This document shows, piece after piece, positions 966-28,272 of a stretch of DNA of 40,043 nt. Location: the IMG/VR virus record IMGVR_UViG_3300036766_000208, positions 1-40,043 of that record. One strand, 5' to 3'. The notes beneath the pieces are model-generated. The model was not told the DNA's origin and did not search any database. It saw nothing but the letters and a program-made list of their open reading frames with translations. The first letter of the stretch is position 1. The number at the start of each line of letters is the position of its first letter. The translations under genes were made by a program, and so were the position numbers. The stretch is from a virus.

Positions 966-971
966 ATTGTG

Positions 972-1257
972 ACTACTGGTCTCCTTAAAGGCGACTTGCA
1001 GTCTCAACAAGGAACTCTCGCTGTAATCACTAATATGGTAAGCGATGTTAACTGTGCTATACCATGCTATGTTTGGCTCTAACTGGTCGGTTGTTAGAGC
1101 GAGGGTTCTTTAAGTAGAGAGCCGTGGGCGCAAGCCCCTTGTGAGACAAAGAAGCGTCCTGCTACGCTCACAGACGGTATGGGAAGTGGAATAGCCCTTG
1201 TAACTGAAAGTATCGGAACGGACGTAAGCCGAGGCGGTCACTTCCCCTCTCTACTTA
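972..1257 (+). ncRNA. Candidate structured noncoding RNA (no family recognised)
   Basis: No convincing reading frame, but dense complementary pairing. Domain 1: 1012-1019 pairs with 1101-1108 (one wobble) and encloses hairpins 1035-1043/1056-1065 (ATGGTA..TACCAT, one bulge) and 1076-1083/1093-1100 (GCTCTAAC/GTTAGAGC). Domain 2: a perfect 11-bp helix TAAGTAGAGAG (1111-1121) / CTCTCTACTTA (1247-1257) stacks on a perfect 8-bp helix GGGAAGTG (1181-1188) / CACTTCCC (1239-1246). Its other branch is CCGT (1122-1125)/ACGG (1174-1177) enclosing a GGGC-GCAA-GCCC hairpin (1126-1137) and GTGAG/CTCAC (1141-1145/1167-1171). TCGG (1213-1216) pairs with CCGA (1229-1232). CTTAAAG (984-990) could alternatively pair with CTTTAAG (1108-1114), suggesting a switch. 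It does not match tRNA, tmRNA, RNase P or 6S as I know them. It may control replication or be a structured origin. Confidence 0.6.
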
Positions 1258-1325
1258 GAGCATTCTTGACAAACCACCAGAATAAACTTCCAACCGTTTT
1301 TCTTGTAATTTATCCACAGTAATAC

Positions 1326-1355: not shown

Positions 1356-1357
1356 TT

Positions 1358-1382
1358 GGGCTACCTAGTAATTAGGTGTCCC
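1358..1382 (+). promoter_or_regulatory. Leader hairpin upstream of the terminator
   Basis: GGG (1358-1360) pairs with CCC (1380-1382), and ACCTA (1363-1367) with TAGGT (1373-1377), forming one hairpin with a small internal loop. It is the first structure in the leader that ends in the terminator at 1401-1462. Confidence 0.4.
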
Positions 1383-1400
1383 ACATCGAGAGCATGAGAA

Positions 1401-1462
1401 TCTTCAGTCCTCGGTGGGGAGGTGGCGCAAGCCGTTTCCTCCCAGGGACTGAGGATTTTTTT
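1401..1462 (+). terminator. Intrinsic terminator/attenuator ending at the start codon
   Basis: An 11-bp outer stem (1401-1411 with 1445-1455, two wobbles), an inner GGGAGG/CCTCCC stem (1417-1422/1438-1443) and a GGC-GCAA-GCC tip are followed by seven T at 1456-1462. ATG of the next gene is at 1463. This is a textbook terminator in an odd place: transcripts must read through it to express the downstream gene. The frame through the hairpin is open and in phase from GTG 1376 and ATG 1394, so leader translation could unfold it. Confidence 0.7.
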
Positions 1463-2197
1463 ATGAAAGGTTTCTACATTGAAATCACAAACAACCTCCT
1501 TGAACCGAAACACCGTGAAGCAATGGGTGAGAGCGTCTGGTTTTATATGTGGCTTTTGGACAAGATGACAAGCGTTGATGAGAACGGAATCGGTAAGGTT
1601 CTCGGAGGCAGACCGATAAAGTTGGAGGAGGTTATAGAAGATTTAGGTGTCTCACAGCGAACGTACTCACGGTACTGCTCACGACTTAAAAGAGGTGGGT
1701 ACATCAAAACAAGACGTACTCCCTATGGAATGGTTATTTTTGTAAATAAGGCAAAGAAGCGTTTTGGTCAAAAGAGTGATACGCCACATATGGCACATCC
1801 AGATACGCCACATTTGACAAGAGATACGCCAAAAGTGGCGGGTAAGATATGCCAAAATAGTCTAAACAAAGAAGACAAGACAAAGAGACAAGACAATAGA
1901 CAAGATATCTCTAGCGAGCAAAGCTCGCATACCAATGAAATAATCACCCTTTTCAAGGATGTGAATCCTACCTTTGAGAGGTTGTATAAGCACAAGACTC
2001 AGCGTTCCGCGGTAGAGCGTCTGGTTAAGAAGTTTGGCGTGGAAAAAATAACGAATACCGTGAAAGCCCTAGCCGAGGTTACGGGTCGGAAGTACGCCCC
2101 ACGAATCACCACCCCACTGGAACTAGAGCGAGACCTCGGAAAACTAATCACATTTTACAAACAAGAAAAAACCACTAAAGGCAAACAAATTATATGA
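1463..2197 (+). CDS. Putative replication initiator / replisome organiser
   Basis: A 244-aa protein. The N-terminus (about 1-100) looks like the winged helix-turn-helix of phage replication initiators: a helical opening, EEVIEDLGVSQRTYSRYCSR as recognition helix and GGYIKTRRTPYGMVIFVNK as the wing. A polar low-complexity linker follows (about 105-155, with repeated DTPH and many K/D/Q). The C-terminal helical part (about 165-235) ends in AEVTGRKYAPRITTPLELER, as in phage replication O/DnaD-like helicase-loading proteins. ATG 1463 is chosen because upstream in-frame starts lie in the terminator stem. There is no Shine-Dalgarno; the start follows a T-run. It overlaps the next gene by 4 nt. It could instead be a transcriptional regulator, though position beside a putative origin favours replication. 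Confidence 0.65.
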   Translation: MKGFYIEITNNLLEPKHREAMGESVWFYMWLLDKMTSVDENGIGKVLGGRPIKLEEVIEDLGVSQRTYSRYCSRLKRGGYIKTRRTPYGMVIFVNKAKKRFGQKSDTPHMAHPDTPHLTRDTPKVAGKICQNSLNKEDKTKRQDNRQDISSEQSSHTNEIITLFKDVNPTFERLYKHKTQRSAVERLVKKFGVEKITNTVKALAEVTGRKYAPRITTPLELERDLGKLITFYKQEKTTKGKQII

Positions 2198-2478: not shown

Positions 2479-2522
2479 GTGTGTTTTGTTGTAGAAAGGG
2501 GGCTAGTTTATCCACTTTTCAC

Positions 2523-2551
2523 TTGACTACAATATCACAGTAATATAGAGT
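2523..2551 (+). promoter_or_regulatory. Promoter giving a leaderless transcript
   Basis: TTGACT (2523-2528), a 17-bp spacer and TAGAGT (2546-2551). Transcription at the usual 7 bp downstream falls on the ATG at 2558, and there is no ribosome binding site, so the mRNA is probably leaderless. Confidence 0.6.
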
Positions 2552-6148: not shown

Positions 6149-6460
<312 letters not shown>

Positions 6461-6462
6461 TT

Positions 6463-20580: not shown

Positions 20581-20823
20581 ATGCGATTATTCAACAATCG
20601 CCTCTTACTAACGGCGAAAGAAAAAAAACAAGCGTGGGACGGTCTCAAGGACGAGAGCGTCAAGCTCGGCACAGTTGCGTTTCCGTTTGACGGCAAGGTG
20701 GAAGAGGAAACAGTGTCACTTGCCAAGGGTGATGAGGTCTATTATCAGTATGGGACAAACATTCGTTTAGACGACGAAGAGTATGTCCTTGTGCGTATAA
20801 GTGATTTGGTATGTCAAAAATAG
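20581..20823 (+). CDS. groS: Divergent GroES-like co-chaperonin
   Basis: An 80-aa protein. The C-terminal half (LAKGDEVYYQYGTNIRLDDE, EYVLVRISDLV) aligns with GroES segments around VKVGDRVLF, GTEVK and EEYLILREDDIL. The N-terminus retains FNNRLLL for DRVLV. The mobile-loop region (TAKEKKQAWDGLKDESVKL) lacks the usual GGIVI/GIVLP hydrophobic tripeptide that docks on GroEL, and it is shorter than normal GroES (about 95 aa). It sits directly before and overlaps groL by 13 nt, the classical gene order, which supports the assignment. A partnership with the phage GroEL is inferred. Confidence 0.75.
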   Translation: MRLFNNRLLLTAKEKKQAWDGLKDESVKLGTVAFPFDGKVEEETVSLAKGDEVYYQYGTNIRLDDEEYVLVRISDLVCQK

Positions 20824-22352
20824 TTTCACGTGACACCGCGCGTATCAAGCGAGGAATTGACGCAGTTGCAGATGCGGTAAGGGTTACCATCGGCCCTCGT
20901 GGCAAGAATGTCGTTATAGCCAACGGACTACATCCGATTATTGCAAATGACGGGGGCAGAATCTCGAAAGAAATCTCGCTCAAAGACCCCATTGAAGACG
21001 TGGGTGCGTCTTTAATCAAGGAGGTCATACAGAAGACATCCGATGACGTTGGTGGAGGGCGCACTGCATCAGCTATCATTACACAATCAGCCATCACGGA
21101 AGGTCTCAATCTAACCCAAAAAGGTTTTAACGCCAATGCGCTTAAACGGGGCATGGAGCTCGCGGTGCAAGATATCGTGAAGGAGATTGAACAACACTCA
21201 AAACCAGTTAAAGATAAGGACCTTGAACACATCGCCACAATCTCTACTGAGAGTGAAGCGCTCGGGCAAGAAATTGCACAAGTAGTGAATAATCTGGGGA
21301 AAGACAGTGTGGTTACGGTGGAGCAGAGCAATACGTTTGGACTCTCTACTGAATACGCTGACGGACTTCGATTTGATAGGGGGTACATCTCACCGTACAT
21401 GGCTACCAACGAGCGATTGGAGGCAGAATACGAGGACATCCCCGTGCTCATTGTTGATAAGAAGGTCTCTCTGTTTAAGGAAATCCAACCAACAATCGAA
21501 AAACTCGTTCAGGAGGGCAAGAAGAATCTACTTATTATCGCTGAAGATTTTGAAGGTGAAGCACTCAACGTGTGTGTGCTTGCTAAATTGCAAGGACGCT
21601 TCAACACCTTGGTTATCAAGACTCCGGGCGTAGGGGACATGAAGAAGTTTTGTCTTGAAGACCTTGAGGCACTCACTGAGGCAAAGCGTGTGGACGAACA
21701 CGACAAGGATGGCAAGCTCGGTCGCGCCAAAAAGGTTATATCACACAAAGACCACACGGTTATTCAAGGGACGGGCGACGTGCACTCATGGATAATTACA
21801 CTTCAAACACGCCAAGCTCTGTCAGAAAACAAATGGGAAAAAGACCAATACCAAGAACGAATCGCTAAGCTGTCTAACGGAATTGCGGTTATTAAGGTTG
21901 GTGCAAGCTCAGAAACCGAGGTAAAATACCTTAAATTAAAAATTGAAGACGGCGTGAATGAGGCAAAACGAGCATTGGAGAGTGGTATTGTTGTTGGTGG
22001 TAACGCCGTATTTATCAACGCACTGAAAAACCTCAAGCCACGCGAACTATCACCTGACGAGTCTTTGGGGTATGAACTAGTGAAACGCGCAGCAGAAGCC
22101 CCACTACGTCAGATTGTAGAAAATGGCAACAGCAAACCTGATATTGTCATCGACACACTACTTCGCAGTAAGTCTGGTACAATAGGGTACAACTCACTGA
22201 CAGACGAAGTAGTTGCAGACATGTTTGTGGCGGGTATTGTAGATGCCACCAAGGTTGCGGTGACGGTGCTACAAAACGCCATTAGTGCCGCCGCAATGTT
22301 TCTATCAGTCGATACTATTATTGCGAACGAACCAGAAAAGGATAACGACTAG
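20811..22352 (+). CDS. groL: Phage GroEL-like chaperonin with altered ATP motif
   Basis: A 513-aa group I chaperonin similar along its whole length: VTIGPRGKNVV, ANDGGRISKEI, RFDRGYISPYM, LLIIAEDFEGEAL, AVIKVGASSE, APLRQIV and a C-terminal DATKV. It is shorter than E. coli GroEL (548 aa) and has no GGM-rich tail. The nucleotide loop GDGTTT (E. coli 86-91) is GGGRTA at 81-86: the Mg-binding catalytic D87 is Gly, T89 is Arg, T91 is Ala. Other pocket aspartates (equivalents of D52, D398, D495) remain. ATP hydrolysis may be lost or slow, or it may act in mixed rings with host GroEL. It probably folds capsid or glycan proteins. Confidence 0.92.
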   Translation: MSKIVSRDTARIKRGIDAVADAVRVTIGPRGKNVVIANGLHPIIANDGGRISKEISLKDPIEDVGASLIKEVIQKTSDDVGGGRTASAIITQSAITEGLNLTQKGFNANALKRGMELAVQDIVKEIEQHSKPVKDKDLEHIATISTESEALGQEIAQVVNNLGKDSVVTVEQSNTFGLSTEYADGLRFDRGYISPYMATNERLEAEYEDIPVLIVDKKVSLFKEIQPTIEKLVQEGKKNLLIIAEDFEGEALNVCVLAKLQGRFNTLVIKTPGVGDMKKFCLEDLEALTEAKRVDEHDKDGKLGRAKKVISHKDHTVIQGTGDVHSWIITLQTRQALSENKWEKDQYQERIAKLSNGIAVIKVGASSETEVKYLKLKIEDGVNEAKRALESGIVVGGNAVFINALKNLKPRELSPDESLGYELVKRAAEAPLRQIVENGNSKPDIVIDTLLRSKSGTIGYNSLTDEVVADMFVAGIVDATKVAVTVLQNAISAAAMFLSVDTIIANEPEKDND

Positions 22353-27423: not shown

Positions 27424-27636
27424 ATGGCAGCAGGACGAAAGGGCGGACGAGCCGCGTACATGAAGAAAATGCGACAGCAAACACCGAAGTCCGGATTGAC
27501 CAGCACCCCTGTCCGCATGGACTCAATGATGAAGGGTGTGGATTGGGCAAATCTTCTTGGGGCACCGTACGTTGCCAACCCAAAAAAGATTCACAAGTCA
27601 TCGGCGAAATCGGCAGCAAAGAGAAGGGGATTTTAG
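27424..27636 (+). CDS. Small basic protein, 70 aa
   Basis: Highly basic at both ends (MAAGRKGGRAAYMKKMRQQT; KKIHKSSAKSAAKRRGF) with a hydrophobic middle around GVDWANLLGAPYVANP. It starts one base after the previous stop. It may bind DNA or RNA in the head, but this is inferred only from charge. Confidence 0.55.
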   Translation: MAAGRKGGRAAYMKKMRQQTPKSGLTSTPVRMDSMMKGVDWANLLGAPYVANPKKIHKSSAKSAAKRRGF

Positions 27637-27647
27637 TTCTTTACATT

Positions 27648-27698
27648 ACGGCGACATCTGGGAGGGTGAGTTCGTCTCCCTATGAGTATCGTCGCCGT
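27648..27698 (+). promoter_or_regulatory. Two-part hairpin between virion genes
   Basis: ACGGCGAC (27648-27655) pairs perfectly with GTCGCCGT (27691-27698) and encloses GGGAG (27660-27664)/CTCCC (27676-27680). There is no T-run, so it is not a classical terminator; it may be an RNA processing or stability element upstream of the 27772 gene. The remaining 27699-27771 shows no gene. Confidence 0.5.
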
Positions 27699-27771
27699 TA
27701 CTTATGTGGGGGACGAACCGACTCTCTCAGGGGTCGAAAGTGAGTATTATCAGAAATAATCTTATATTCAT

Positions 27772-28272
27772 ATGGGTATCAGATTTCCACTTAAAACAGT
27801 TCTCGACGTTCAAAACAACGGCTTGATTGGAGCAGCATCAGCGGCGGGTGGTATTGCAAACACATTCGTTATTCCGCAAGACGCGGATGCTATTGTGGTC
27901 AAGTTGCAGTCCAGCACCGCAGGAGGAGGCGTGAGTGCCACTCTCCAAACGTCTGACGACGGAGGTACGACATGGTATGACGTGTCTCGAACAAGTGTTG
28001 TTTCTAACGTAAACGGAACGACGGCTGCTTGGTGTGCTGGGTTTGTGAATGCAGGAGGTATTGCAACGGCGCAAAACAACTTCCCAACCAATTCGATTAT
28101 GGCAATTGGTATTCGCAATACAGCAGCGTCGGTCTTGGCGCAAAACCAGATTTCTGGCCTGCCAATGCTCGGACCACTGGGACGCGTGTTTCACATCATT
28201 GACGCGGGTGTGACTGGTGTTGTATCAGTTCGCACACAAGTCAAGGTGAACAGCGAAGCAGCAGGACAATAA
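27772..28272 (+). CDS. Putative virion protein, 166 aa
   Basis: A beta-rich protein with AAGGIANTFVIPQDADAIVV, SATLQTSDDGGTTWYDVSRT, GTTAAWCAGFVNAGG and a C-terminal VSVRTQVKVN. TSDDGGTTWYD-type loops are frequent in phage capsid decoration and tail-associated proteins. Located between head genes; exact role unknown. Preceded by the hairpin at 27648-27698. Confidence 0.6.
   Translation: MGIRFPLKTVLDVQNNGLIGAASAAGGIANTFVIPQDADAIVVKLQSSTAGGGVSATLQTSDDGGTTWYDVSRTSVVSNVNGTTAAWCAGFVNAGGIATAQNNFPTNSIMAIGIRNTAASVLAQNQISGLPMLGPLGRVFHIIDAGVTGVVSVRTQVKVNSEAAGQ

Follow-up and report, generated by a model that had tools for sequence, protein, structure and literature searches.

In the Inc18 plasmids pIP501 and pAMbeta1, the promoter of repR is located about 300 bp upstream of this rate-limiting replication gene (PMC4981023). 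The repR transcript carries a long leader inside which transcription terminates prematurely (PMC4981023). In pIP501, it is RNAIII, an antisense RNA made from an opposing promoter, that sets off this attenuation. The locus described here belongs to a 40-kb record of an uncultivated phage (40,043 nt, the whole of which was analyzed and is referred to as the window). Like pIP501 and pAMbeta1, it shows a predicted leader of about 490 nt and a predicted attenuator hairpin followed by seven T (1396-1462), which abuts the ATG of a replication gene. Unlike in pIP501, no antisense promoter was found opposite the window leader (970-1462), and unlike in both plasmids, the gene is DnaD-like (phrog_7498) rather than of the RepR/RepE type and the element is a phage. 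The put RNA of phage HK022 and the EAR-type processive antitermination RNAs are structured 5′ RNAs followed by an intrinsic terminator. Similarly, the window has a structured RNA at the predicted 5′ end of a transcript and an intrinsic-terminator-like hairpin after it, but this RNA is much larger than put and matches no family. In phage lambda, transcription across or beside the origin (pR, pO/oop RNA) influences replication (PMC3985674, PMC12197685), and the short RNA near the replication genes is a further parallel to the window (PMC3985674, PMC12197685). However, oop RNA is transcribed convergently with pR and lies antisense to cII, while the window RNA points to the replication gene and is the larger of the two, and no partner gene antisense to it was found. 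Finally, GOLLD and ROOL RNAs are often carried by phages. Together with OLE, they are large ornate non-coding RNAs (PMC12286853); in contrast to them, the window RNA has no Rfam match, is smaller, and lies beside a replication gene rather than tRNA genes.

The folded region lies in a stretch that is non-coding, small ORFs aside, between a lysin-like gene (ending at 668) and the DnaD-like gene (starting at 1463). A first-pass annotation had placed a large structured RNA, equipped with a promoter-like site of its own, before the replication gene, and this holds up; its coordinates (972-1257) are right to within a few bases, and 967-1260 is used here. Its statement that the region lacks coding was borne out by an ORF check, in which no sense ORF of more than 47 codons overlaps 967-1260. 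The RNA is large, strongly folded and apparently untranslated.

The fold of 967-1260 consists of three abutting domains, namely one hairpin and two domains that are each closed by a 14-bp helix (G-U pairs counted). Hairpin 1 (967-1007, plus strand) has its base at the predicted transcript start and is built of the helices 967-969/1005-1007, 971-974/1000-1003, 978-981/993-996 and 983-985/989-991, with probabilities of 0.79-0.98. Domain 2 (1009-1111, plus strand) is closed by 1009-1022/1098-1111 and has in its interior a hairpin (1034-1066) and an alternative hairpin (1076-1100); the probability of its closing helix is ~0.98 for the domain alone and ~0.43 in the full 971-1462 transcript. Domain 3 (1108-1260, plus strand) is closed by 1108-1121/1247-1260 and contains the inner helices 1121-1125/1174-1178, 1139-1145/1167-1173 and 1181-1189/1238-1246, as well as a GGGC-GCAA-GCCC tetraloop hairpin (1126-1137, plus strand; probability 0.99). 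The loops of the fold include GCAA and GUAA, both of the GNRA type. The helices singled out earlier were recovered: a Watson-Crick helix of 11 bp at 1111-1121/1247-1257, one of 8 bp at 1181-1188/1239-1246 with a second of that length at 1076-1083/1093-1100, and the GCAA tetraloop at 1130-1133. The upstream domain is indeed multi-helix, and a three-way junction formed on helix 1076-1083/1093-1100 is a genuine, plausible alternative, ~4 kcal/mol worse in isolation and with a probability of ~0.45 in the long transcript. A helix between 984-990 and 1108-1114, suggested as a competitor of the main closing stem, was rejected, as it is predicted with a probability of 0 when the whole transcript is folded and of ~3% in a nascent one.

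The structure is present in the sequence and is better than chance. Two helices of at least 13 bp were obtained in none of 400 shuffles of the 967-1260 region. The fold energy has a z of -3.55 (0/200 shuffles as good) and, in a second run, of -3.3 (0/300); with 40 shuffles the z was only -2.4. We estimate that 290 nt would contain, by chance, ~0.3 inverted repeats of 11 nt with one mismatch. In a scan of the whole window, 967-1260 is not the most strongly folded place and z values of about -3 are not unusual, so that the placement and the closing helices count for more than the energy. The strongest fold in the window (z ~-10) belongs to a gene of ~100 aa at 6150-6461 (plus strand; starting with METIITTEMMRGSGYGSG) and is due to a hexanucleotide repeat (GGCTCT/GGCTAT/GGCGAT) that makes up most of this gene and encodes G-S, G-Y and G-D dipeptides. 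A very stable long hairpin is also found in the virion region at 27652-27739 (plus strand), between the genes 27424-27636 and 27772-28272, with a z of -5.4 over 27620-27790 and no Rfam match.

The region 1356-1465 has a z of -6.13, with 0/200 shuffles as good. It comprises a hairpin found by folding at the predicted start of a second transcript (1357-1383, plus strand) and the terminator-like hairpin with its T run (1396-1462, plus strand), which has a GCAA loop and the stem 1396-1411/1445-1460. The seven T (1456-1462) end at the start codon of the DnaD-like gene. As read from the sequence, the Shine-Dalgarno motif GAGGA of this gene (1451-1455) lies within the 3′ arm, and termination and masking of the start would therefore be combined in one hairpin. 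No antiterminator helix was found in the predicted transcripts and the terminator-like stem has a probability of ~1 in both of them, so no switch is visible; a pairing of 1015-1020 with 1388-1393 competes with domain 2 and not with the terminator. At 1260, no terminator was found. The presumed target is the DnaD-like helicase loader gene (1463-2197, plus strand; phrog_7498, E 1.4e-23). Its protein shares the start M(K/Q)GFYIE with its relatives and its N-terminal region with Geobacillus phages, the closer matches being uncultivated phages.

Two extended -10 promoter-like sites of the form TGTGGTAnnAT precede the gene on the plus strand: P1 (TGTGGTAGGAT, 955-965) and, 390 bp beyond it, P2 (TGTGGTACTAT, 1345-1355). 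The site earlier assigned to the RNA is P1, and its predicted start (~971-972) coincides with the base of hairpin 1. Three copies of the pattern TGTGGTANNAT are present in the window, where 0.27 would be expected, and the third of them lies within a portal-like gene. The -35 boxes of P1 and P2 are poor, and the evidence for P1 is at the level of consensus only. A DnaA box (TTATCCACA, 1310-1318, plus strand; exact match) is found 35 bp before P2, start to start; there are 4 exact boxes in the window, which makes this one weak evidence by itself. There is no cluster of boxes; in addition to this exact box, an 8/9 box (TTATCCACT) occurs near 2508. The latter stands directly before a TTGACT-17-TAGAGT promoter-like site (2508-2551, plus strand), in the same box-then-promoter order as at P2. 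Within the leader (970-1462), the minus strand shows neither a promoter scoring at least 9/12 nor the extended -10 pattern. To the left of P1, the minus strand carries a perfect TTGACA-18-TATAAT promoter-like site at 903-874 and weaker ones at 925-896 and 835-808, all pointing left to a terminator-like inverted repeat (723-747). They may produce a leftward RNA of ~150 nt, divergent from P1, with a fold z of -3.4. Antisense control by this RNA was considered and rejected, as the duplex energy is no better than that of shuffles (414/500 as good). Pairing between the P1 and P2 RNAs is likewise not significant (452/500 shuffles as good).

Homologues were searched for by blastn, by pattern and by covariance model, and phage, plasmid and fetched IMG/VR records yielded none. 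In agreement with the first-pass annotation, no known family was recognized: Rfam 15 has no family at the gathering threshold over the window, and the sub-threshold matches at 860-1480 (E 0.34 or worse) are far below the curated cut-offs. No homologue of 880-1480 was found in 50,697 phage records and none of 960-1265 in 72,556 plasmids. Neither the relatives fetched for the DnaD, Erf, lysin and phosphoesterase genes nor 23 virion relatives, which have structural genes but not the replication module in common with the window, contain a homologue of the RNA. Several of the virion relatives also encode the GroEL-type chaperonin found in the window at 20811-22352 (plus strand; phrog_5725, E 4.9e-109). 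Covariance models built from domains 2 and 3 as single sequences were run over 0.95 Mb and 45 kb, where nothing outside the window matched convincingly. Two candidates were dismissed: a 19-nt exact match at the DnaD start of one related phage (L125) is coding sequence, and the sole match of a gapped pattern scan of IMG/VR (L123) looks like coding sequence and is due to chance.

Independently of sequence similarity, we compared 12 phages with a close DnaD type (window included; 48-68% over the N-terminal 100 residues). Tiles of a fixed 160 nt were placed so as to end 0 and 100 nt upstream of the gene, and the best z was set against that for other genes of the same loci. Values of -3 or below precede DnaD in 9 of the 12 phages, compared with 7.5% of 120 control genes (Mann-Whitney p 1.4e-4, which is optimistic because members of the group are partly related, L080-L082 to each other). 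In Geobacillus-type phages, where the DnaD gene is inside an operon, there is no excess of fold before it (p 0.6). Elements picked individually by eye, a biased choice, have z values of -1.4 to -7.6. L126 and L134 share the order of a DnaA box, an extended -10 site (GTGGTAnnAT), a long-closed RNA, a terminator and then DnaD. The closing helix has 13 bp in L134 and is interrupted in L126; in L134, one small ORF precedes DnaD and the gene after DnaD reads, from its sequence, as a replicative helicase. The same layout is present away from DnaD in G004 and L098, the DnaA box of L098 being an 8/9 match. In L133, a hairpin, a Shine-Dalgarno motif and seven T abut the DnaD ATG as in the window; this locus lacks a DnaA box, and its overall z is weak (-1.4). 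Among 45 related records, the pair formed by a DnaA box in either orientation and, 15-45 bp on, GGTAnnAT was counted 10 times, and a reversed-pattern control once. The pairs in G004, L126 and L134, and that in L098 with its 8/9 box, continue into a strongly folded, terminated RNA, and about half of the 10 sites show ordinary folding, lie in coding DNA and look coincidental. While the sequence of the RNA is unique, a folded RNA or terminator often stands at the corresponding position in related phages, and this suggests a replication-control region. The comparative signal mainly concerns the gene-adjacent element (1356-1462), not 967-1260, which would be tied to it by the shared promoter type and layout.

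Other structured elements were seen in the same phages. Upstream of the DnaD-like gene, L079 (2530-2590), L080 (1912-1955), L081 (2014-2065) and L082 (1888-1940) carry a short element GCTCTCG...CGAGAGC, interleaved with a second complementary pair in a pseudoknot-like order; its differences between phages look compensatory and it has no Rfam match. L098 (5237-5415, plus strand) has a DnaA box, a TTGACA-TATACT promoter-like site and a leader before early genes, in which two hairpin loops are complementary (GCTTATC/GATAAGC) and may form a kissing pair. On the phage contigs L080 (46-236) and L082 (61-255), two tRNA genes stand in tandem. Both are of one type, lysine-like with the anticodon loop CTTTTAA, and on each contig it is the first copy that scores weakly.

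We tentatively favor the reading that 967-1260 forms the beginning of a leader in which attenuation controls how strongly the replication gene is expressed, a regulatory or copy-control role being also the likeliest of those first suggested. It builds on the observed fold and helices, the promoter-like and terminator-like sites, their placement and the fold excess before the DnaD-type gene; beyond these we infer transcription, the transcript ends, termination, control of DnaD and any role of DnaA. Transcription from P1 towards the DnaD-like gene would produce an untranslated leader of ~490 nt with 967-1260 at its 5′ end, and transcription from P2 a leader of ~100 nt with the same end point. 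Most transcription would stop at the terminator-like hairpin, which would also bury the Shine-Dalgarno motif, and expression of the gene would be set by the frequency of polymerase read-through. The elaborate upstream RNA may modulate read-through: it might bind a factor of the phage or host, antiterminate directly or pair over a long range. This leader reading is favored because the fold, with its two 14-bp closing helices, beats shuffles, because the P1 start meets the base of hairpin 1 in a region whose sense ORFs do not exceed 47 aa, because the hairpin with its seven T stands directly before the start codon, and because DnaD is preceded by excess fold in most of the 12 phages, with comparable elements in L133, L126 and L134. 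It is weakened by the lack of a homologue, of an antiterminator helix, of an antisense promoter in the leader and of a terminator at 1260, and by the comparative signal falling mainly on 1356-1462.

Alternatively, 967-1260 may be a free-standing, trans-acting phage RNA of at least ~290 nt, which would act on host or phage RNAs or proteins (polymerase, a nuclease or a defence system, for instance) and owe its location only to early expression. The exact tiling of 967-1260 by domains with clean ends, the promoter-like site of its own and the elaborate fold with GCAA and GUAA loops agree with this, and the minus-strand promoters (903-874) with the inverted repeat (723-747) suggest a neighbouring short RNA. 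We consider it rather unlikely, since the RNA would lack a terminator at 1260, does not pair significantly with either the P2 RNA or the predicted leftward RNA, and has no homologue, though trans-acting RNAs with conserved partners are often conserved. A structured origin, also proposed earlier, is possible but unlikely. Here, transcription from P1 and P2 across the DnaA-box region would open the DNA or leave a priming or regulating RNA. The idea rests on the box at 1310-1318 and on related phages that likewise pair a box with a promoter, with an excess over the control and some continuations into terminated RNAs; against it, the box before P2 is single, none is clear before P1, neither iterons nor an AT-rich element for unwinding were identified, and about half of the pair sites look like chance in coding DNA.

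The near-equal gain of both strands over shuffles (z -3.55 for plus, -3.45 for minus) would fit a feature of single-stranded DNA, such as a single-strand initiation or packaging signal. However, the plus strand is more stable, its fold has 10 G-U pairs, some of them in each closing helix, versus 6 on the minus strand, and the transcription signals are correctly placed, all of which makes this quite improbable. It is no more credible that the region is an ordinary spacer with a fortuitous fold. The z, not extreme for this genome, the result with 40 shuffles and the lack of a homologue speak for a spacer; two abutting 14-bp closing helices absent from all 400 shuffles, a promoter-like site at the exact start and the group-wide fold excess before DnaD speak against it. 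A size of ~290 nt, a multi-branched shape and GNRA loops might recall a ribozyme, or what is left of an intron or a mobile RNA; the earlier suggestion of a ribozyme finds no support, as no Rfam intron or ribozyme model matches 967-1260 even at E up to 10 and no reverse transcriptase or homing ORF adjoins, and we regard it as highly improbable.

It is conceivable, if on the unlikely side, that uncultivated phages share a recurrent replication-control cassette composed of a DnaA box, ~15-45 bp, an extended -10 promoter (GGTAnnAT), a promoter-proximal RNA closed over a long range, a terminator and a replication gene, in which the architecture is kept while the RNA sequence turns over and the DnaA level or RNA folding gates replication. 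The window would carry the largest version of the box-promoter-RNA-terminator layout among the loci examined. Plasmids are well known to control replication through leader RNAs, and few descriptions of such control exist for DnaD-type replication genes in uncultivated phages. If related phages keep the RNA folded and terminated at the DnaD gene but let its sequence change, RNA searches based on homology would overlook the class, and searches by position plus fold would find its members. The window, L126 and L134 provide concrete loci for testing this possibility.
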